This document shows positions 5,867 through 44,576 of a stretch of DNA of 49,533 nt, one piece after another. The notes beneath the pieces are model-generated. The model had not been told where the DNA came from and searched no databases. It worked only from the letters and a program-made list of their open reading frames with translations. The DNA is from Chloroflexota bacterium (GTDB taxonomy: Bacteria; Chloroflexota; UBA6077; FW602-bin22; JAMCYS01): positions 1-49,533 of the forward strand of contig JAMCYS010000075.1 in NCBI GenBank assembly GCA_023473795.1. The letters are read 5' to 3'. The translations under genes and the position numbers were made by a program. Each line of letters begins with the position of its first letter. Within the stretch, counting starts at the first letter, position 1.

Positions 5867-8008
5867 TCAATGATTTTCGCCGGTCAGAATGATCCGCGCA
5901 TCGACAGCGGTTGCTCCGCCGCCCGCGGGATTGACGACGAGGGGATTCACATCCAACTCAATTATCTCAGGAAAGTCGGTCACGAGCTGCGAGACGCGCA
6001 ACAACGCATCGACGATGGCAGCCAGGTCGGCCGGGGGCTGGCCACGCACGCCCGCCAGAAGCGGGAAGGAACGGATCTCGTGCACCATGGTTTCCGCCTG
6101 GCTGGGCGTAAGCGGCGCCACGCGGAACGACACGTCCTTGAGCACTTCGACGTAGATGCCGCCGAGCCCGAACATTACTAGGTGGCCGAACTGCGGGTCG
6201 TGCGTCACCCCGAGGATAACCTCGCGTCCAGGCTTGACCATTTCTTGCACGGCCACGCCCCACACGTCCGCATCCCGTTTGTAGCGCAGGGCATTGGCGC
6301 GAATGGCCTTGTACGCAGCCAGTACCTCGGCGTCGTCCTGCACGCCCACACGCACGCCGCCCGCGTCCGACTTGTGGAGAATATCGGGCGAGACGATCTT
6401 CATCACAACCGGATAGCCGATCTCCCGGGCAAACTGCACGGCTTCGTTGGCCGAGGTAGCCAGTTTGTTACCCGGCAGGCGCAGACCATAGGCCTCCATC
6501 ACTCCCCTGGCCTCCAGGTCGCCAAGGGCGGTGCGACCGGCCTCGCGCGCACGCCTGATAACCTCAGCCGCCGCCTCGCGGTCCACCTTCATTTCTACCG
6601 GTTGCTCTTCCGGAGTGAGCTGCCACTCCCGGTAACGATCCATCGCCACCAGAGCCTCGACCGCCCGCTCCGGGAAGGTGTAGTTGGGCACGCGACCCTC
6701 CCTGAGGATCTGCAGGCCAGGCGCTACCGCCTCGCCACCCATGAAGCTGGCCAGCACGGGCTTGCTACCGTTCTGGCCGGCACGAACGACTACTTCGGCG
6801 GTCTTCTCGATCTCCGTCATCGCTTGCGGTGTCAGCAGTACCAGTAACGAGTTGACATTGGGATCGGCCAGCGCCGCATCGATCGCCACCTGGTAGCGAT
6901 CAGCCTGCGCGTCGCCGATGACGTCGACCGGATTGTAGACGCTGGCCGCGCGCGGCAGGTGCTCACGCAACCGGGCGATCGTCTCGGGAGCAAACGACGC
7001 CAGCTGCAACCCCTTCCGCTCGCAGGCATCGGTTGCCAGAATGCCGGGACCGCCGGCGTTGGTCACAATCGCTAGACGCTTGCCCGCCGGCAAGGGCTGG
7101 TAGGCGAACGCCAGCGAAATGTCGAACAGGTCCTGCATCGTCGCCGCTCGCAGGATGCCAGACTGCTTGAAGGCGGCGTCGTAGGCCGCCTCGGAGCCGG
7201 CCAGGCTGCCCGTGTGCGAGGAAACGGCCCGCGAGCCTGCCGCCGTGCCGCCGGACTTCACTATCACCAGAGGCTTCTTCTTGGTCAGTGCCGTGGCGGC
7301 CTTGCGGAACTCGCTACCGTTGGTGACCCCTTCCAGATACGCCACCACGACCCTTGAATCAGGGTCCTGGCGGAAAGCCCGGAACATGTCGATTTCGCTC
7401 AGGTCCGCCTTGTTACCCAGACTCACGATCTTGCTGAAGCCGACCTGCTCGGATACGGCCCAGTCGAGAATGGCAGTGAGCAGGGCGCCGGACTGGGAGA
7501 CGAATGCTATGTCTCCCACCTCGGGCTGAGCAGCGGCGAAGGTCGCGTTGAGACGGGACTTCGTATCGATAATCCCGAGGATGTTGGGGCCGAGAATGCG
7601 CATGCCGCCCTCGCGGGCAATGCGCGTGATCTCCTTTTCCGCCGCCAGGCCCTCCGGCCCCACCTCGCGGAAACCGGCGGTGATGATCACGGCGCCTTTG
7701 GCCCCCTTGGCCACCGCGTCTCGCAGCACTGCTGCCACCAGAGGCTGCGGCACCACCACGACCACCAGGTCCACAGGACCCGGTATGGAAACCAGATCGG
7801 GATATACTTTCAGACCAAGCAGCCCGTCAGCCTTGGGGTTGACCGGATAGATCGGGCCAGGAAAGCCCATCTCCAGCATGTTCTTCAGCACCGTGTGGCC
7901 CAGGCCCTTCTCATTACGCGAAGCGCCAACAACGGCCACGGAAGCAGGTGAGAAGAACGCCTTGAGGATGTCGCCTACGTTTTCACTAACATCGGAAGTT
8001 GTGACCAC
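5867..8008 (-). CDS. ADP-forming acetyl/acyl-CoA synthetase, fused alpha-beta subunits
   Basis: Converts acyl-CoA + ADP + Pi to acid + CoA + ATP, which conserves energy during acetate formation. Domain order: CoA-binding Rossmann domain (SVAVVGASRNEKGLGHTV), succinyl-CoA-ligase-like flavodoxin domains with the phospho-accepting His in SSHTGSLAG (about residue 245), then a C-terminal ATP-grasp domain (GYPVVMKIVSPDILHKSDAGGV through DVNPLVV). About 713 residues, the usual fused length. The GTG at 8008 has GGGAGAG nine bases upstream and is preferred over a TTG at 8026. It shares a transcript with glycerate kinase (about 50 bases) and overlaps the DRTGG gene. Substrate range cannot be read from sequence. 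Confidence 0.93.
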   Translation of the reverse strand: MVTTSDVSENVGDILKAFFSPASVAVVGASRNEKGLGHTVLKNMLEMGFPGPIYPVNPKADGLLGLKVYPDLVSIPGPVDLVVVVVPQPLVAAVLRDAVAKGAKGAVIITAGFREVGPEGLAAEKEITRIAREGGMRILGPNILGIIDTKSRLNATFAAAQPEVGDIAFVSQSGALLTAILDWAVSEQVGFSKIVSLGNKADLSEIDMFRAFRQDPDSRVVVAYLEGVTNGSEFRKAATALTKKKPLVIVKSGGTAAGSRAVSSHTGSLAGSEAAYDAAFKQSGILRAATMQDLFDISLAFAYQPLPAGKRLAIVTNAGGPGILATDACERKGLQLASFAPETIARLREHLPRAASVYNPVDVIGDAQADRYQVAIDAALADPNVNSLLVLLTPQAMTEIEKTAEVVVRAGQNGSKPVLASFMGGEAVAPGLQILREGRVPNYTFPERAVEALVAMDRYREWQLTPEEQPVEMKVDREAAAEVIRRAREAGRTALGDLEARGVMEAYGLRLPGNKLATSANEAVQFAREIGYPVVMKIVSPDILHKSDAGGVRVGVQDDAEVLAAYKAIRANALRYKRDADVWGVAVQEMVKPGREVILGVTHDPQFGHLVMFGLGGIYVEVLKDVSFRVAPLTPSQAETMVHEIRSFPLLAGVRGQPPADLAAIVDALLRVSQLVTDFPEIIELDVNPLVVNPAGGGATAVDARIILTGENH

Positions 8009-33183: not shown

Positions 33184-34680
33184 TTAGGCGCCGGCCCCCG
33201 CGGGCGTTGCCGAAACGTGCACCGGCAGATACACCGTGAAGGTGCTGCCGACCCCCGCCTCGCTGGCCACGACCAAGTAACCGTTGTGGACCTCTAGCAG
33301 ACGCTTGACGATGGCCAACCCCAGACCGGTGCCGGTGACCCTCTCGGTAGCCGCCATCTTGACTCGGAAGAACTCCTCGCAGAGGTGGGGCAGCGCCTCG
33401 GCGGGGATGCCGTAGCCCGTGTCCTGCACCTCGACGCGAACCCGCCCATCGTCTCGCTGAGCCCGGACGAAGACCCTACCCCCGTCGCGGTTGTACTTGA
33501 TGGCGTTGCTGAGAAGATTGGTGAAGACGCGTTCCAGGTCCTTGCGGTCGGCCAGAACCGAAGGCAGGCTGTCCGGCAGGTCGAGCTGGATCACGAGGTC
33601 GCGCGCTTCCCCCTACGCCCGGAATATCTCCACCGTCTCGGCCAACAGGATACCGATGTCCAGTGGCTCCAGGTCGCGCGCCACCCTACCGGCTTCGATC
33701 TTGGAGAGGTCCAGCAAGTCGTCGATGAGCCCCAGGAGCGCCGTGGCACGATCCTGGCAGCGACTGAGCATCCGCGCCTGCCTCTCCGGGTCACCGGCTA
33801 CCACGCCGGAAACCAGCACGTCCAGGTACTGGCTGATCGCTCCCAGCGGCGCGCGCAGCTCGTGGGCCACCATCCGCACGAACTGCGACTTGACCTTGTC
33901 TAGCTCCTTCAGCCTGGTTATGTCGCGTAAGAGGGCCACAGAGCCGAGAATCTGCCCCCGCTCGTCGCGAATAGGCGCCACGTTGGCCATCAGCACGCGT
34001 TCTTCAACCGCGAACTCGCGGGTCTTCATTTCGTAGCCGGAGTCGCTCAGCGGGGAGACGATCAAGTCGCTAAGCTCGAAGCCAAGGCCCACTTCGGCGA
34101 CCTGGCCGCCAACCACTTCCGCCTCGCGCAGGCGGAGCATCTGCAGGGCGGCCGGATTGGTCAGTACCAGCTGCGCCTCGCGGTTAATCACCAGCACCCC
34201 GTCCACCATGCAGTTCACGATGGAGCGCATTCGCGATTTCTCGGCGTTGAGGTTGAGGAGGTTGCGCTCCATCTCTTCGCGCAGCCGCCGGGCCTCCAGG
34301 GAGAGGCGCCGGCGCTCCAAGGCGCGGCGCACGGAGCAGGTCAGCTCGTCGGGCATGAATGGCTTGGAAATGAAATCGTAGACGCCGCGCTTGGTCGCCT
34401 CCACGGCTGTCTCCAGCGTCGCGTAGCCGGTTATGACAATGCAGACCGTGTCGGGCGCTGCCACTTGCACCTCGTGCAGCAGTTGCAGCCCGTCCATCCC
34501 CGGCATCTTGAGGTCAACCAGAGCTATGGAGAAGCTGTCGCTCTTTAGCTTGCTCAAGCCTTCGAGTCCATCCTTGGCCAGATCGACTTCATAGCCCTCG
34601 CTCGACAAGACCCAACGACAGCCCTCCCGCATGCCGGGCTCGTCATCGACAACCAGTATTTTATTGCCCCCGACTTCCAC
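33184..34680 (-). pseudogene. Receiver-PAS-histidine kinase, interrupted by an in-frame TAG
   Basis: One continuous frame of 498 sense codons apart from TAG at 33613-33615. N-terminal receiver domain (KILVVDDEPGMREG, phospho-Asp in VDLKMPGMDG, Lys in ISKPF), linker, PAS domain (~140-250), HisKA H-box (MVAHELRAPLGAI); the stop falls immediately after the HisKA region. The HATPase_c domain follows in the same frame from a GTG at 33594 (NLLSNAIKYN N-box, [23 protein letters not shown]). GGGGGAA overlaps the stop, so separate translation of the ATPase part is conceivable. The gene lies 27 bases after a second broken regulator gene. Confidence 0.88.
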
Positions 34681-34707: not shown

Positions 34708-35109
34708 CTACTCGGGACCCGATATCGCCTCGGCCACTCTGGCGAGCAAATCGTTGCGCGTCAGCGGTTTGTTGAGAATGCGGTCGACCTTGATCCAGCG
34801 CCTGTCCTCCGGGCTGTCCAGGTTGAATCGGAAACCAGTGTCGCGCGCCGCAGCAGTCACCAAGAGGATAGGCACCTGCTGCAAGTCGGGCTGTCGGCGG
34901 AGTTGGTAGGCAACCGTGAAACCGGCATCCGGCTTTTCCAGCATGAGATCAAGCAGGACCACATCGGGTTTGGCATCTCAGGCCACCGCGAGACCCTCTT
35001 CAGCGCTCTTGGCCGTCGTCACGCTGTAGCCCGCGCTCGCCAGCGTTGCCTCGCTGGTTTCCAGCAAATCCACGTCGTCGTCGATGATCAGCACCTTCTT
35101 CGTGCCCAC
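34708..35109 (-). pseudogene. Single-domain response regulator with an in-frame TGA
   Basis: From the GTG at 35109 (GGAGG 12 bases upstream) the frame encodes TKKVLIIDDDVDLLETSEATL, then EEGLAVA, then TGA at 34978-34980. It resumes in frame with DAKPDVVLLDLMLEKPDAGF (phospho-Asp) and ILNKPLTRNDLLARV. Total 133 codons, a normal receiver length. The stop precedes the phosphoacceptor, so the truncated product would be inactive. CGA (Arg) to TGA is the simplest explanation. It immediately follows the hydrogenase-like kinase, its likely partner. Confidence 0.85.
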
Positions 35110-35136: not shown

Positions 35137-37170
35137 TCAGGGCAGTGGCCGGCCGAGTATGCCCGCGCCAACCCAGTCGTCGGGGGGTGTTATGCGACAG
35201 GGCAGAGTTACGGTGAACCTGGTGCCCCTCTCCAGGTGGCTCTGCACGCTGATCTGTCCCTTGTGCATCTTGACAATGCCGTAGGCGATCGCCAGACCCA
35301 GGCCCGTGCCCTGCCCTATTTGTTTGGTCGTGAAGAACGGCTGGAAGACCTTGCTCAGATTCGCCTCGGGTATGCCGCAGCCGGTATCGGCGATGGAGAC
35401 CTCCACGGACTCGCAGCCCACCGGAACCGTCGTAACGGTCAACCTGCCACCGCCAGGCATGGCCTCGGCAGCATTGACGACGATGTTGATGAACACGTCT
35501 TTGAGCTGACTGGGGTCGGCCTCGATTATGGGTAGCATTGGGTCAAGAGATAAGTCTATAGTCACCTGTGCAAACGACGGCTGTTTCTCCACCAGGGCCA
35601 GGCTATCGCGCAGCACGTCGTTCAGTTGGACTTCCCGCAGGTTGAGTTTGCCCTGCCGGGCAAAGTTGAGGAGACCCGACACTATCGTGCGACAGCGCGT
35701 GGCCTCGTCTATGACCATCCGCAGCGCCGGTATCCTTTCGGAGTCGGGCGTTCCGCCGCGCAGCAGCATGTGAGAACAGAGCAGGATGGTGCCGAGCGGG
35801 TTATTGACTTCGTGCGCCACACCGGCCGCCAGCTGGCCCATCGACGCTAGCTTCTCGGACTGAATCAATTGGGCCTGTGTCTCCTGCAGCTCTCGGTGCA
35901 TCCGCGATAGTTCGAGGAAGTTGGCCTCCATCTGCTCGATCAGGAAGGGCAGGCACATCTCAGCCTCGGCCAGCCCCTGGCAGACGGCGATGGCCTTCTC
36001 CCGGCAGCTGGCGTAGCCACAGGCGCCGCAGTTCAGCTCATCCTTGGGCCTCAGCTTGTTCGTCCGCCGCAGGGCCTTCTCGATGTCCGCCTCCGACGGC
36101 AGCGACAATCCGGGGGCAGGATGGGCATCAAAGTGGCGGGAGAGGTCCAGATCGGCGTATTCCAGCTGGTACTGCGCGGCCGCTTGCCGTTCGGCAGGCG
36201 AGCGGGCTCTGGCAAAATCGACCACCAACTTGCGTCGCGCCGTGAGGCTCAGGTCGTTTTGCACCCGGGGGCCGGCGATACAACCCTCGCAGAAGAGCAC
36301 GTCCAGCAGGCGCACGTCGACCTTTCCCTCCGCCATTTCCCTCAGCAGCTCGACCGTCGTGTCTTTGCCCTCTGCTACCAGAATCTCAGTCTCCATTACG
36401 TCGGCAGAGAGCGCCGCCGTCTTGAGAAGGCCGCCCGGCACGGGGAAGATACGGCCCAACCCCGCCCGAGGACCATCGAAATCGTCATCGGCCAGCAGCG
36501 AAGGGTCGACCGCACCGGACGACCACATGTCACGCAGCTCGCGAAACGTCAACACGGCGTCCACATAGTCGGCGACCCCCGGCTCATTCATCTCGGCCTT
36601 CTTGGCAATGCAGGGCCCGACGAAGACGAAACGGGCGCCGGGGTGATAGCGTTCCTTGACAACTCTGGCCAACGCTGCCATTGGCGAGACCACCGGAGCC
36701 AGGTTCTCGACCAGAGAAGGCGCGTGTTTCTGCACGTATGCCACCACTGCCGGGCAGGCGGTGCTGATCAACGCCCGTCGTCCGTCCCGGCGAAACAGCT
36801 CCGCGTAGGCGTTGCCAACGAGCTCCGCGCCGAAGGCAACCTCCATTACCTCGTCAAAGCCGAGGGCGCGGATGGCAGCGACGACCTGGCCCGCCCGGAG
36901 CTCCGGGAAGGCGGCGGGAAACGAGGGCGCTAGGCCAGCGACGACGTAGTTGGCTTCGTCGTCAAGGTAGGTCGCGGCGTCCTCGATGCCGCTGCGTACC
37001 TCTTTCGCCGATTGCGCGCAGACACGGGTACAGTTGCCGCAGCCGACACAGCGGTCGTCAATTACTATGGCCTGTCCATCCTCGACTTTGATTGCCTTGG
37101 CTGGACAGTTGCGCACGCAGGAGTAGCACCGCCGGCATTTGTCCTTGATCGTGGTGACCAGACCAGACAT
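35137..37170 (-). CDS. Ferredoxin / [FeFe]-hydrogenase-like / histidine kinase fusion (redox or H2 sensor)
   Basis: 677 residues from the ATG at 37170 (a TTG at 37248 adds a non-conserved tail). Order: two 4Fe-4S motifs ([23 protein letters not shown]); a [FeFe]-hydrogenase H-cluster-like domain (~55-345) with [19 protein letters not shown] and [10 protein letters not shown] for the three H-cluster loops; a further 4Fe-4S module [18 protein letters not shown] with a later Cys (~380); HisKA with [17 protein letters not shown]; and HATPase ([31 protein letters not shown]). L1 lacks the proton-relay Cys and L3 is CxxC, so sensing rather than turnover is likely. Cytoplasmic; no membrane span. Preceded by a Rex operator. 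Confidence 0.92.
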
Positions 37171-37320
37171 CCGACCGTTCTGCCCTTCTCCGGGGAACGG
37201 GCCGGGAGGCTTCTCCGCTCCCCCGACCCTCGGCCTAATCAGAGACAAGCGTCACAATCCCTAGAACGCTCCCCGGGGCGCGTAATGGGTATGCAGCAGA
37301 TGGTGAGAACGCTCGCCCAT

Positions 37321-37338
37321 TTGTGACTGTGTTCACAA
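37321..37338 (-). promoter_or_regulatory. Rex operator upstream of the hydrogenase-like kinase
   Basis: TTGTGACTGTGTTCACAA: both half-sites match the Rex consensus TTGTGA-N6-TCACAA exactly. It lies just after the rex gene and ~150 bases ahead of the kinase start on the same strand. Confidence 0.85.
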
Positions 37339-37355
37339 TTCAGGGCAAACAAAGA

Positions 37356-38057
37356 TCAAGGCTCGCGCTGCCGTTCCTCCTCCGGCAACGAATCATGATG
37401 GGCTCGCGCGGACTCGCCGTCCTGCATCGCCCGAAATGCGAGCAACTGCATCTCCCGGGAAAGGTCGACTTGCCGAACCGTCACCCCCCGCGGTAGGCTC
37501 AAGACCACAGGGGCGAAGTTGAGAATAGCCCGGATGCCCGCCTGTGCCAGCTTCTCGGCCACGGACTGGGCGCTGGACGCGGGAGTAGCCAGGATGGCGA
37601 TCTCGGCTCCCGTCTGCGCCAGCACCTCGCCCAGTCGGTCGATACCGTGCACCAGGGCTCCGTCCACTTTCTTGCCGATCTTGGCTGGATCGACGTCAAA
37701 GACCGCCACCATGTTGAAGTTCCGGGCGGCGAAGCCCCGGTAGCGGGCCAGCGCCGCGCCGAGACTGCCGTAGCCGACCAGCACGACCCGGCGCTCGTGG
37801 GTAACGCCGAGAAAGCGAGTCAGCTGGTAGAGTAACCGCCGCACCTCATAGCCCACGCCGGGAGTGCCGAAGTAGCCGAGCCGGTAGGGCACGAGGTAGG
37901 AGAAATCCTTGCGCACCTGGGCGGCGTTCACCCCGGCCGCGGCGGCCAGCTCACGTGATGAGACGGTGGCCACTTCCTGGTCGAGCAGGCGCTCAAGGTA
38001 GTCTACGTAGGTCACCAGGCGCCCGACAGTTTCGTCGGGGACCACGCTTGCCGCCAA
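37356..38057 (-). CDS. rex: Redox-sensing transcriptional repressor Rex
   Basis: 233 residues. N-terminal winged helix (VGRLVTYVDYLERLLDQEVATVSSRELAAAAGVNAAQVRKDFSYL) and Rossmann domain with VLVGYGSLGAALARY, FDVDPAKIG and the C-terminal domain-swapped helix. Rex binds NAD+ to repress and is released by NADH, so it reads the NADH/NAD+ ratio. It follows a response regulator gene and precedes the hydrogenase-like sensor kinase on the same strand. Two Rex palindromes in the same 1.3 kb imply autoregulation. Confidence 0.97.
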   Translation of the reverse strand: MAASVVPDETVGRLVTYVDYLERLLDQEVATVSSRELAAAAGVNAAQVRKDFSYLVPYRLGYFGTPGVGYEVRRLLYQLTRFLGVTHERRVVLVGYGSLGAALARYRGFAARNFNMVAVFDVDPAKIGKKVDGALVHGIDRLGEVLAQTGAEIAILATPASSAQSVAEKLAQAGIRAILNFAPVVLSLPRGVTVRQVDLSREMQLLAFRAMQDGESARAHHDSLPEEERQREP

Positions 38058-38111
38058 CGCTGCCTCTCTCCTGGCCCGCCGATTAGCGGCGGGCGCTAGG
38101 TTCGTCCGTAT

Positions 38112-38504
38112 CTAGGCCCCCAAACGGCCAGCCAACAGATTCTTGACGCGCGCCGCGAGTTCAGCCGACTTCATTGGCTTACTAATGAACTCGTCGACGT
38201 GCAGCGGTTGGTCCGTGGGAAAGGTGCCCGCGTACTCCGTGCTGGCGATGGACGAGACCATGATCACGGGCACCTTGGCTAGGGCGGGGTCTTCGTGCAA
38301 GTCCGCGCTCATCCGCAATCCGTCTAGCGCCCACGACATCATCACGTCGAGAATCACCAAGTTCGGCCTCTCGGCGCGCGCCACCTGCAGCCCCTGGTTG
38401 CTGTCGCTGGCGGCGAGGACCGTGTAACCCTCCGCCTCCAAGGCGGCGCGGGTGGTTTCGATGAAGTCCACGTCATCGTCGACGACCAGAATCTTGCCAG
38501 ACAT
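38112..38504 (-). CDS. Single-domain response regulator
   Basis: 130 residues, a receiver domain only: KILVVDDDVDFIETT acidic pocket, phospho-Asp in LVILDVMMSWALDG, Ser/Thr switch in IMVSSIAST, and Lys in FISKPMKSAEL. No output domain, so it would act in a phosphorelay or on a protein partner. It is the first gene of the rex operon, 54 bases ahead of rex. The ATG has AAGGAG upstream. The kinases further down the same strand are the likely phosphodonors. Confidence 0.93.
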   Translation of the reverse strand: MSGKILVVDDDVDFIETTRAALEAEGYTVLAASDSNQGLQVARAERPNLVILDVMMSWALDGLRMSADLHEDPALAKVPVIMVSSIASTEYAGTFPTDQPLHVDEFISKPMKSAELAARVKNLLAGRLGA

Positions 38505-38555
38505 CGCCCGCTCCTTTCACCGCGGGGGATCACGCCCTGCCCGTCCAGGATACGA

Positions 38556-38573
38556 TTGTGAACTAGTTCACAA
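38556..38573 (-). promoter_or_regulatory. Perfect Rex operator at the rex operon promoter
   Basis: TTGTGAACTAGTTCACAA is an 18-bp perfect palindrome and an exact Rex site. It starts two bases after the minus-strand -10, so it covers the transcription start. On the plus strand it also overlaps a weak promoter-like pair (TTGTGA, 16 bases, TATATG) pointing at the sulfur operon. Confidence 0.9.
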
Positions 38574-38575
38574 TG

Positions 38576-38603
38576 ATTATATGCCGTACAAGGGCTTTGT
38601 CAA
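38576..38603 (-). promoter_or_regulatory. Consensus promoter of the response regulator-rex operon
   Basis: Minus-strand TTGACA (38598-38603), 16-base spacer, TATAAT (38576-38581): both hexamers are perfect. A promoter this strong directly followed by the Rex operator implies tight repression at low NADH. Confidence 0.85.
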
Positions 38604-38769: not shown

Positions 38770-39639
38770 ATGGACAAGAAGTCATCTACCCGCCAACAGG
38801 CAACGCCTCCCGAGCGTCCCGCGCGGACCTTCGACGAGGACCAGATGCAGCGGTATAGCCGCCACATTGTGCTGCCTGAGATCGGCGGGATTGGCCAGCG
38901 AAGTCTCCTCGATGGCAAGGTGCTGATTGTCGGCGCAGGCGGCCTGGGCTCCCCGCTCGTCTTGTACCTGGCCGCGGCCGGCGTGGGAAGGCTCGGCATC
39001 GTCGACAGCGACGTGGTTGAACTGAGCAACCTGCAGCGCCAGGTCGTCCACCGCACCGCCGACGTGGGCCGCGCCAAAGCCGAGGTTGCGGCCGAGGCGG
39101 CGCGACTGCTCAACCCGGACGTCGTCGCCATGCCCTACGCCGAGCGCTTGACTTCGGCCAACGCCCTGGGCGTAATCGCCGGCTACGACGTCGTGGTGGA
39201 TGCCAGCGACAACTTCCCCACGCGTTACCTGGTCAACGACGCCTGCGTGCTGCTCGGCAAACCGCTGGTGTACGGTGCCGTTTACCGCTTCGACGGCCAG
39301 GTATCCGTTTTCGCTCCCGGACAGGGCTGCTACCGCTGCCTGTTTCCTAGGCCGCCCGAACCGGGTATGATACCAAGCTGCGCGGAGGGGGGCGTCCTGG
39401 GCGCGCTGCCCGGTGTGATCGGGACCATCCAGGCGATGGAGGTCCTGAAGATCCTCCTGGGCAAGGGTCAGACGCTGGCCGGCCGCCTGCTCGCGTTCGA
39501 CGGTCTGTCGACGGAGTTTCGCGAACTGAGCTACGTGCGCGACCCGGACTGCCCGGTTTGCGGCGACCGGCCTAGCGTCACCGAGCCGATCGACTACGAG
39601 GCTTTCTGCGGGCTGGGAGCGGCAGCGACCGGTCGCTAG
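38770..39639 (+). CDS. HesA/MoeB/ThiF-family adenylyltransferase (E1-like)
   Basis: 289 residues from the ATG at 38770. RYSRHIVLPEIGGIGQRSLLDGKVLIVGAGGLGSP is split as the family's start plus the ATP-binding GAGGLGS. VELSNLQRQVVHRTADVGRAK is the conserved Arg-finger region, DASDNFPTRYLVND the Mg site, and CYRCLF with CPVCG supply the zinc Cys pairs. Such enzymes adenylate the C-terminal Gly-Gly of MoaD/ThiS/CysO-type sulfur carriers. No rhodanese tail, so it is MoeB/ThiF-like, not MoeZ. First gene of a sulfur-transfer operon; the carrier itself is not in the window. Confidence 0.93.
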   Translation: MDKKSSTRQQATPPERPARTFDEDQMQRYSRHIVLPEIGGIGQRSLLDGKVLIVGAGGLGSPLVLYLAAAGVGRLGIVDSDVVELSNLQRQVVHRTADVGRAKAEVAAEAARLLNPDVVAMPYAERLTSANALGVIAGYDVVVDASDNFPTRYLVNDACVLLGKPLVYGAVYRFDGQVSVFAPGQGCYRCLFPRPPEPGMIPSCAEGGVLGALPGVIGTIQAMEVLKILLGKGQTLAGRLLAFDGLSTEFRELSYVRDPDCPVCGDRPSVTEPIDYEAFCGLGAAATGR

Positions 39640-42341: not shown

Positions 42342-43553
42342 GTGGGAGCGTTGGTATCTAGCACAAGAGTAACCAGCATAGGCGCGGCAACTAGCGCCTA
42401 CGCCGAGCTACCCTGGGGGCAGCTCTCTTTGAGCTCCGCTGCCGCGTTCCTGGTCACCGCGGCGATGCTCAACTTCGCGCCGCTCGTGCCGGCGGTGCGG
42501 GCCGAGTTTGGCATCTCGAACGTCTGGGCCGGACTCCTAACCTCCGCCACCGTCCTGACCCACACCGTGCTGCAGTTGCCGGCCGGGCAGGTGTCAGATT
42601 CCCTCGGTTCCCGGCGCACCATCGCTCTAGGGGTAGCCATCATCGGTCTGTCCGTGCTGGCTTCGGGCTTCGCCGGCGGGGTCGAGACGCTCCTCCTCTG
42701 GCGCATGTTGTTGGGCGTCGGCACGGCAATAGCCTTCGTCGGCGGGCTTACCTACGCCTCAACCCTGGTGGCGCCGCAGCGCCGGGTTCTGGCGCAGAGC
42801 GTCTACGGTGCCGCGGCAAACCTGGGCACCTTGGCCATGCTGTTGATCTCAGAGCGGTTGGCAGCCTTCGGCGGCTGGCGAGAGGCCCTGGTGATAGAGG
42901 GCGCGGCCACATTGGCGATCGGCCTGCTCATCGCCTGGCGCCTTCAAAGCAACGGGGCTCACGCCGCCGGCCCGGCGCTTTCCTGGGGCGCCACGCTGCG
43001 CGAGACCCCTCTCTGGCTGCTCGGCCTGGCGCATCTCGTCACCTACGGCGCGTTCACCGGCGTCACCAGCTGGGTGGTGACCTTCCTCTGGGAGCGCTAT
43101 GGGGTCGGATTGGAATGGGCAGGTCCGCTGGCGGCACTACTGACGCTGGGGGCGTTCTTGGGCCGCCTCTTCGGCGGGCCTTTCTCGCTGGGCCGGCAGC
43201 GAACCGTAGTCGTCTGGTCCTGCTTCGCCGCTGCCGTATCCCTGGGCTGGGCGCCTCTGGCGCCCAGTCTACCGCTGTCCTTGCTAGCGCTATTCGCCTT
43301 CGGCTGGTTCTTCAGTCTGCCTTTCGGCGCCGTCTTCAGCTATGCCTCGCTCGTCTCGGGCCGGCCGGCGAGCGGCAGGGAGATCAGCTTCATCAACGGG
43401 GTCGCCAACGTCGGCGCGCTCAGCTTTCCCCCGCTGATCGGCTACGCCCTCGACTCCACGGGCTCCTACGTCGCCGGCTTCGGCATGGTGGCGGCGATTG
43501 GGATGGGCGTTTCGCTGGCGCTCGGGCTGTGGCTACCCCGGGCGAGAGTCTAG
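42342..43553 (+). CDS. MFS transporter (12 TM)
   Basis: 403 residues with about twelve membrane helices. The MFS motif A appears as GQVSDSLGSRRTI between helices 2 and 3, and the second half begins near TLRETPLWLLGLAHLV. Resembles the nitrate/cyanate (NarK/CynX) branch of the superfamily. Substrate unknown. Start GTG at 42342; a TTG at 42351 with AAGGTGGG upstream is an alternative. Follows larE by 27 bases and overlaps the convergent alcohol-dehydrogenase chimera by 21 bases. Confidence 0.9.
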   Translation: MGALVSSTRVTSIGAATSAYAELPWGQLSLSSAAAFLVTAAMLNFAPLVPAVRAEFGISNVWAGLLTSATVLTHTVLQLPAGQVSDSLGSRRTIALGVAIIGLSVLASGFAGGVETLLLWRMLLGVGTAIAFVGGLTYASTLVAPQRRVLAQSVYGAAANLGTLAMLLISERLAAFGGWREALVIEGAATLAIGLLIAWRLQSNGAHAAGPALSWGATLRETPLWLLGLAHLVTYGAFTGVTSWVVTFLWERYGVGLEWAGPLAALLTLGAFLGRLFGGPFSLGRQRTVVVWSCFAAAVSLGWAPLAPSLPLSLLALFAFGWFFSLPFGAVFSYASLVSGRPASGREISFINGVANVGALSFPPLIGYALDSTGSYVAGFGMVAAIGMGVSLALGLWLPRARV

Positions 43554-44576
43554 CCGACCGGCGCTCCCGTCTCCAGATTCCAGCCCAGCCAGCTCGGGCA
43601 CTCCGAAGCGCTCAGCCAAAGCGCGACTACCCAGGGCCAGCATGGCGCCCGGACCCTCCCGTTCGGCAGTGGCCTGGACGAGCTTAGGCAACCGCTCGGC
43701 GTCGCCGTAGCGAATCTCCACCCCGCCAAAGTCCGCGGCGGCAACCAGGCCTCTGGCGAATAGTTCGCAGGCCAGGCCGATCGTGGAGCCGCAGCTGATC
43801 GTGTCGAGTCCGTAGGCGTTGCAGAGGTGCCCGGCATAGATGACGGTCTCGAGGTCATCGATCAGCAACAGCGAGCCCAGGGCGGCGACCGTCTCGAATT
43901 CCGGGCCGTCGGCCGTTGCCAGCCCGAAGCGCGGCGCCCGCAGAGCGTGCCCGTCCGCCAGATCGTTGTGCCAGGTGCAGGTGTAGGCTTCGACGGCGTG
44001 CACGAGGGCGTCCAGGCCCGTCTCGGCCGTCAGGCCGGGGGGCATCGAGGCGGCCAGCGCGGGGTCGACGATGGCGATGTCGGCCACGTTCTCCCTGTTT
44101 CCGAGGCCCAGCTTCCGCTTCCCTTGAGTGCCGGTGAGCACGATGCCCATAGTGACCTCAGAGCCGGTGCCGCTCGTCGTCGGCACCGTCGCCAGGCGCG
44201 CCTTGCGGCGAAGATCGAGCCGCAGGGCGGGGCTGATGGCGCCGGGCTGGAGGTCAGGACGCTCGTACGGCACCCAGGCCGCTTTGGCCGCATCCATCGC
44301 CGAGCCGCCGCCGACGCCGACCAGCCAGTCCGGCCCGAAGTCCGAGGCGACGGCCGCTCCCCGCAGGGCGGTCTCCACGCTGGGCTCCGGCTCCGCGTCG
44401 TCGTAGACGAGCACTTCGCTGCCGGCGCGCTGCAAGCGCCGGCGCACTGGCTCGACTAGGCCGAGGCCACGCACGACCCTGTCGGTGACGATGAGCGTCT
44501 GGTGGGCCTGCAGCTCGTCGAGCGCCTCCAGGGCATCGGCGCCGAAGTAGATCCGCGGCGAGAGGAAATACCACAC
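43533..44576 (-). pseudogene. Iron-containing alcohol dehydrogenase fused to an aldehyde:ferredoxin oxidoreductase fragment
   Basis: One open frame of 347 residues, but two families. Residues 1-~210 are group III Fe-alcohol dehydrogenase: the Rossmann half with VGVGGGSAMDAAKAAW and ATVPTTSGTGSEVT, then DALVHAVEAYTC. The C-terminal metal-binding half is missing. From about residue 215 (around 43930) it reads GPEFETVAALGSLLLIDDLETVI and YGLDTISCGSTIGLACELF, the middle of tungsten aldehyde:ferredoxin oxidoreductase, until ~330. The end is again abrupt. Two separate genes seem to have been joined by deletion; neither half can be a complete enzyme. Confidence 0.85.

Follow-up and report, generated by a model that had tools for sequence, protein, structure and literature searches.

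Does the NADH repressor Rex control an iron–sulfur histidine kinase at this locus, and, if so, what would the kinase itself sense? The stretch analysed here (the window, 49,533 nucleotides) is contig C49 of a 4.44 Mb genome in 170 contigs, with a completeness of 96%. A sequence-only reading of it had proposed that two exact Rex operators tie a redox phosphorelay to the NADH/NAD+ ratio, creating a layered circuit in which a transcriptional NADH sensor governs an iron–sulfur two-component sensor. Judged from sequence and comparative data, this picture appears sound in outline, with rex and its sites quite likely representing a self-contained, NADH-controlled redox-signalling unit.

Results

Gene content of the cassette

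The cassette is encoded on the minus strand and contains a receiver gene, rex, an iron–sulfur kinase gene and two further phosphorelay genes, with sulfur-relay genes diverging from its upstream end (Table 1). Between the two palindromes that concern us, sites A and B, no gene for a DNA-binding regulator is present besides rex. The ATG of the kinase was picked by comparison with relatives, the longest open reading frame beginning at 37248, and lies 150 nt from site B. The stop codons in the second receiver and hybrid kinase genes each fall within otherwise unbroken homology to intact relatives, so either the phosphorelay genes beyond the kinase could be impaired or the assembly could contain errors at these two positions. 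Foreign contamination of the contig is argued against by its UvrA, which is closest to same-order genomes (79–73%).

Table 1. Features of the rex–kinase cassette and its divergent neighbour (window coordinates)
Feature	Position	Strand	Description
Promoter-like TTGACA-16-TATAAT	38576..38603	-	12/12 consensus match; serves receiver–rex transcript
Site A	38556..38573	.	Perfect palindrome TTGTGAACTAGTTCACAA, 14/14 against TTGTGAANNNNTTCACAA; overlaps expected transcription start
Single-domain response regulator (receiver)	38112..38504	-	Pfam Response_reg; first gene behind site A
rex	37356..38057	-	Genome's sole Rex; 5-residue insert after recognition helix
Site B	37321..37338	.	TTGTGACTGTGTTCACAA, 13/14; interval between rex 3' end and kinase
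Fe–S histidine kinase	35137..37170	-	2x[4Fe-4S] ferredoxin–Fe_hyd_lg_C–FeS–HisKA–HATPase
Second single-domain receiver	34708..35109	-	In-frame TGA at 34980
Receiver–PAS–histidine kinase hybrid	33184..34680	-	In-frame TAG at 33615
ThiF-family gene	38770..39639	+	Divergent; first of sulfur-relay genes

Two palindromes bracket rex and are exclusive to it in the genome

Both palindromes claimed by the sequence-only reading were confirmed, site A being fully palindromic, as was the promoter that it had called perfect: on the minus strand, TTGACA (38603–38598) and TATAAT (38581–38576) are separated by 16 nt, and site A starts two bases past TATAAT. Measured against the Rex operator consensus, TTGTGAANNNNTTCACAA or TTGTTAANNNNTTAACAA, site A matches at every position, while site B, which lies 17 bases past the end of rex, has an exact 12-base core and a single deviation from the 14-mer. 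No promoter near site B was called by the promoter scan. The further suggestion that the palindrome might affect the divergent sulfur operon finds no support: the letters of the plus-strand TTGTGA-16-TATATG are present, but they are a poor promoter match (4/6 + 4/6) that the promoter scan left uncalled. An Rfam scan of 33–42 kb gave no match, and hence no known leader RNA family before this operon.

Across all 4,438,761 bases of the genome, exact TTGTGA-N6-TCACAA occurs just twice, as sites A and B on either side of rex, and the reversed pattern used as a control gives no exact match. Base composition predicts about 0.04–0.05 exact sites per genome and a probability of about 1e-10 for two inside the same 1.3 kb; therefore the pair is not a product of chance, whichever protein reads it. 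When up to two mismatches are allowed, the genome holds 24 sites against 26 for the control, which gives no indication of additional sites beyond chance. Two sites with one mismatch, C130:9409 at the start of a nuoB-like gene and C170:15182 between genes, were rejected as targets, their number being that expected by chance.

The palindrome in other genomes of the phylum

A true Rex is missing from all 12 same-order genomes that were sampled, which made a close phylogenetic footprint impossible; one same-class genome (G019) has one. In two more genomes, G049 and G037, both of one family, a site that is exact or has one mismatch separates rex from nuoA and more nuo genes. As in the window, an operator-like site lies past the 3' end of rex and ahead of the following operon, although in these two genomes that operon encodes complex I (nuo) whereas site B precedes the kinase.

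Of 400 genomes of the phylum, 27 contain the exact extended palindrome, compared with two for the control. However, phylum-wide exact palindromes had to be rejected as proof of Rex sites, since the fetched loci adjoin other genes. At 26 site-bearing loci from other genomes, where genes were named by visual reading of the sequence, the site never has rex, nuo or kinase genes as neighbours, and at several it adjoins MarR- or ArsR-like genes. Taken by itself, the palindrome does not identify a Rex site. The label "exact Rex operator" is consequently too strong, and the assignment must rest on context: in the window, on the exclusivity of the sites and the position of rex between them. Among the fetched loci, the exact Rex-type palindrome adjoins MarR-like and FabZ-like genes in L190–L200 (one family of the phylum), an ArsR-like gene in L186–L187, and, in L204–L210, a conserved gene encoding some 420 aa.

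The Rex protein

The only Rex of the genome combines a winged-helix N-terminus (Pfam Put_DNA-bind_N) with an NAD-binding Rossmann domain (CoA_binding), matches a solved Rex in the PDB at 1e-42, shares about 36–47% identity with other Rex proteins, and yields an AlphaFold model with a pLDDT of 88. Twelve DNA-contact residues have been given for the Thermotoga maritima Rex–DNA complex (PMC8836258). Alignment to the solved Rex indicates that nine are kept (Arg12, Ser33, Gln46, Arg48, Lys49, Ser52, Gly58, Gly61 and Tyr64), including Arg48 and Lys49 of the recognition helix, which read bases in the major groove. Glu34 is changed to Arg, Lys43 to Asn and the wing residue Arg60 to Pro. On the conservation of Arg60 the same study is inconsistent, setting the residue apart from the highly conserved positions in one passage and counting it as conserved elsewhere (PMC8836258); both this residue and the length of the wing vary in the family, and neither is strictly defining. 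The GxGxxG NAD motif is retained, as are Tyr100 and Asp191 of the NADH switch. Directly after the recognition helix lies a five-residue insert, VPYRL, which is absent from the 44 + 10 other Rex sequences compared and is modelled with low confidence for a folded domain. It may alter DNA binding, without necessarily abolishing it. Like the changes at Lys43 and Arg60, the insert weighs against the proposed binding of Rex to the two sites.

The kinase is probably not a hydrogen sensor

The kinase fuses an Fe_hyd_lg_C domain to a histidine kinase, as in [FeFe]-hydrogenase group C1, and such an architecture could belong to an H2 sensor with an H-cluster, in which case the circuit would join NADH and H2. 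HydDB provides a precedent in group C1, which "may sense H2" (PMC5037454), and relatives of the kinase adjoin catalytic HydA and HydG. Nevertheless, we consider this interpretation very improbable. All 86 kinases compared retain both ferredoxin motifs and the cysteines of L1, L3 and the FeS motif, and 85 of them retain that of L2; loop L3, however, reads CxxC in 86/86 as opposed to CxxxC in the catalytic HydA of the same operons. The window kinase retains four cysteine ligands of an H-cluster with an L3 spacing that departs from CxxxC. None of the listed kinase sequences has the L1 proton-relay cysteine. HydF and HydG (the two proteins covered by the maturation search) and a catalytic [FeFe]-hydrogenase were all without a match above cut-off in the 96% complete genome, whose two Fe_hyd_lg_C proteins are both Fe–S kinases. 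Group C1 proteins of Hydrogenedentota have likewise been reported to be without recognisable H-cluster motifs (PMC11406978).

The window kinase is thus probably not an H2 sensor and would not be expected to hold an H-cluster; we infer that it carries ordinary iron–sulfur clusters reporting electron-carrier or oxygen state. The earlier description of an iron–sulfur two-component sensor holds for its architecture, and needs to be qualified both by the expected lack of an H-cluster and by the interrupted relay genes downstream. The second Fe–S kinase of the genome, 55% identical, is encoded at 7453–17877 of contig C130 together with receiver, receiver–PAS–kinase and GAF genes and adjoins nuoL-, nuoH-, nuoB-, nuoC- and nuoD-like genes; this locus contains neither rex nor an exact Rex-type site.

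Kinase operons of other phyla

We fetched 80 loci encoding related kinases, mainly from Bacteroidales and also from Ignavibacteria, KSB1 and Lentisphaerae, and found rex within the fetched flank of 44. The commonest order, seen at 25 loci, is nuoE-nuoF-hydA-kinase-RRHK-rex-hydG, where RRHK denotes a receiver/kinase. The motif TTGTKA-N6-TMACAA, allowing up to one mismatch, lies less than 400 nt upstream of nuoE at 31 of 64 loci. Only the spacer of 6 stands out among the spacings, and permuted half-sites average about two loci, near-synonyms of TTGTTA excepted. Where rex is present the motif occurs at 30 of 38 loci, against 1 of 26 where it is absent (Fisher 8e-10, the loci being related and not independent events). 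It equals the clostridial Rex consensus, TTGTTAAN4TTAACAA (PMC8457756); that of Staphylococcus aureus is TTGTGAAW4TTCACAA (PMC2883068). Because the motif both tracks rex and equals the clostridial consensus, Rex control of the kinase operon is probably recurrent. We found no earlier description of a Rex–kinase operon in the literature searched. Six hydrogenase–kinase operons with no rex in the fetched flank (L119, L126, L129, L132, L139 and L141) have paired Rex-type sites separated by exactly 63 bp, about 650–710 nt upstream of nuoE.

Discussion

These results allow us to propose a model for the cassette. At a low NADH/NAD+ ratio, a Rex dimer would occupy both site A, over the start of the receiver–rex transcript, and site B, in front of the kinase, keeping expression of the cassette low. 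As NADH rises, Rex would be released and the receiver, Rex itself and probably the kinase would be made, resulting in negative feedback. The kinase would then read a second redox state through its iron–sulfur clusters and phosphorylate the receivers. The proposal that Rex represses its own gene and the receiver draws good support from the position and exclusivity of the sites, the Rex residues and the comparative footprints, and autoregulation of this transcript is likely. The case for Rex acting on the kinase by way of site B is a little weaker; such control is likely, but no recognisable promoter stands behind the site. Given that the kinase cluster holds its own Rex together with the only two perfect Rex-type sites of the genome, a single circuit here probably receives two redox signals.

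The model depends on the palindromes being sites that Rex reads. That they are merely chance palindromes might be argued from the window alone, where, with up to two mismatches in 49.5 kb, as many matches arise in 12 of 100 shuffles; at zero mismatches across the genome, the excess over expectation and the location of both sites beside rex reduce this explanation to a negligible one. A more serious challenger is a different regulator recognising a TGTGA-N6-TCACA core, for example one of the CRP/FNR family, with Rex a mere neighbour. This core is the CRP core, two CRP/FNR-type HTH proteins score above cut-off in the genome, and the association with MarR- and ArsR-like genes elsewhere in the phylum points in the same direction. 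However, a CRP-type regulator should have more than two exact sites, those that exist bracket rex, rex is the sole DNA-binding regulator gene between them, and site A agrees in full with the extended Rex consensus. We therefore find it improbable that another protein is the principal reader.

Some doubt attaches to how far the influence of Rex would extend. It is conceivable that Rex acts at site A on receiver–rex alone. Site B would in that case be either a relic or a barrier to read-through, and expression of the kinase would start elsewhere or depend on read-through. The promoter scan, the distance from site B to the kinase start and the single deviation from the 14-mer are all consistent with such an arrangement. 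Against this, the 12-base core of site B is exact and is one of only two in the genome, and in G049 and G037 a site is similarly placed between rex and the downstream nuo operon. This restricted role is unlikely, though less so than a different regulator, and we continue to favour Rex acting at both sites.

Comparison with known systems clarifies what is unusual about the window. The Rex proteins of Caldicellulosiruptor bescii (PMC6391272) and Clostridium thermocellum (PMC8457756) likewise have a site at their own promoter, and they control [FeFe]-hydrogenase genes; work cited in PMC6391272 predicts that Rex targets a histidine kinase in C. saccharolyticus. Those regulators have many targets, whereas the window Rex has no site above chance beyond its two and no [FeFe]-hydrogenase was found with it. 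With HydDB group C1 (PMC5037454; PMC11406978) the kinase shares the Fe_hyd_lg_C–histidine kinase fusion and hardly recognisable H-cluster motifs. Its relatives adjoin nuoEF-hydA (group A3-like) operons, but the window kinase is unlinked to any hydrogenase and linked instead to rex and Rex-type sites; the account of group C1 in PMC11406978 does not mention Rex. The sensory HydS proteins of groups C and D (T. maritima and Thermoanaerobacter mathranii; PMC8163306) share the N-terminal clusters, the H-domain, an extra C-terminal Fe–S motif and the lack of a proton-relay cysteine. HydS binds an H-cluster (PMC8163306), while the window kinase family has a shortened L3 loop and its kinase domain in the same chain.

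We regard the cassette as related to the regulatory portion of nuoEF-hydA [FeFe]-hydrogenase operons, retained without the hydrogenase. We advance only tentatively, as a scenario falling a little short of probable, that it was kept alone as a two-signal redox integrator while Rex shrank from a global to a private regulator. The usual targets of Rex are metabolic enzymes; in the window and in the related operons of other phyla, Rex appears to control an iron–sulfur sensor kinase. The role of the "group C1 hydrogenase" kinases thereby becomes testable, and their habit of travelling with an NADH repressor and H2–NAD enzymes suggests that they report electron-carrier state rather than H2. The locus also provides a natural one-locus Rex regulon in which to test the effect of nested redox control.

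Elsewhere in the window, positions 43533–44576 form one 347-aa frame whose N-terminus matches the Fe-dependent alcohol dehydrogenase family and whose C-terminus matches aldehyde ferredoxin oxidoreductase, representing either a fusion or an assembly artefact.
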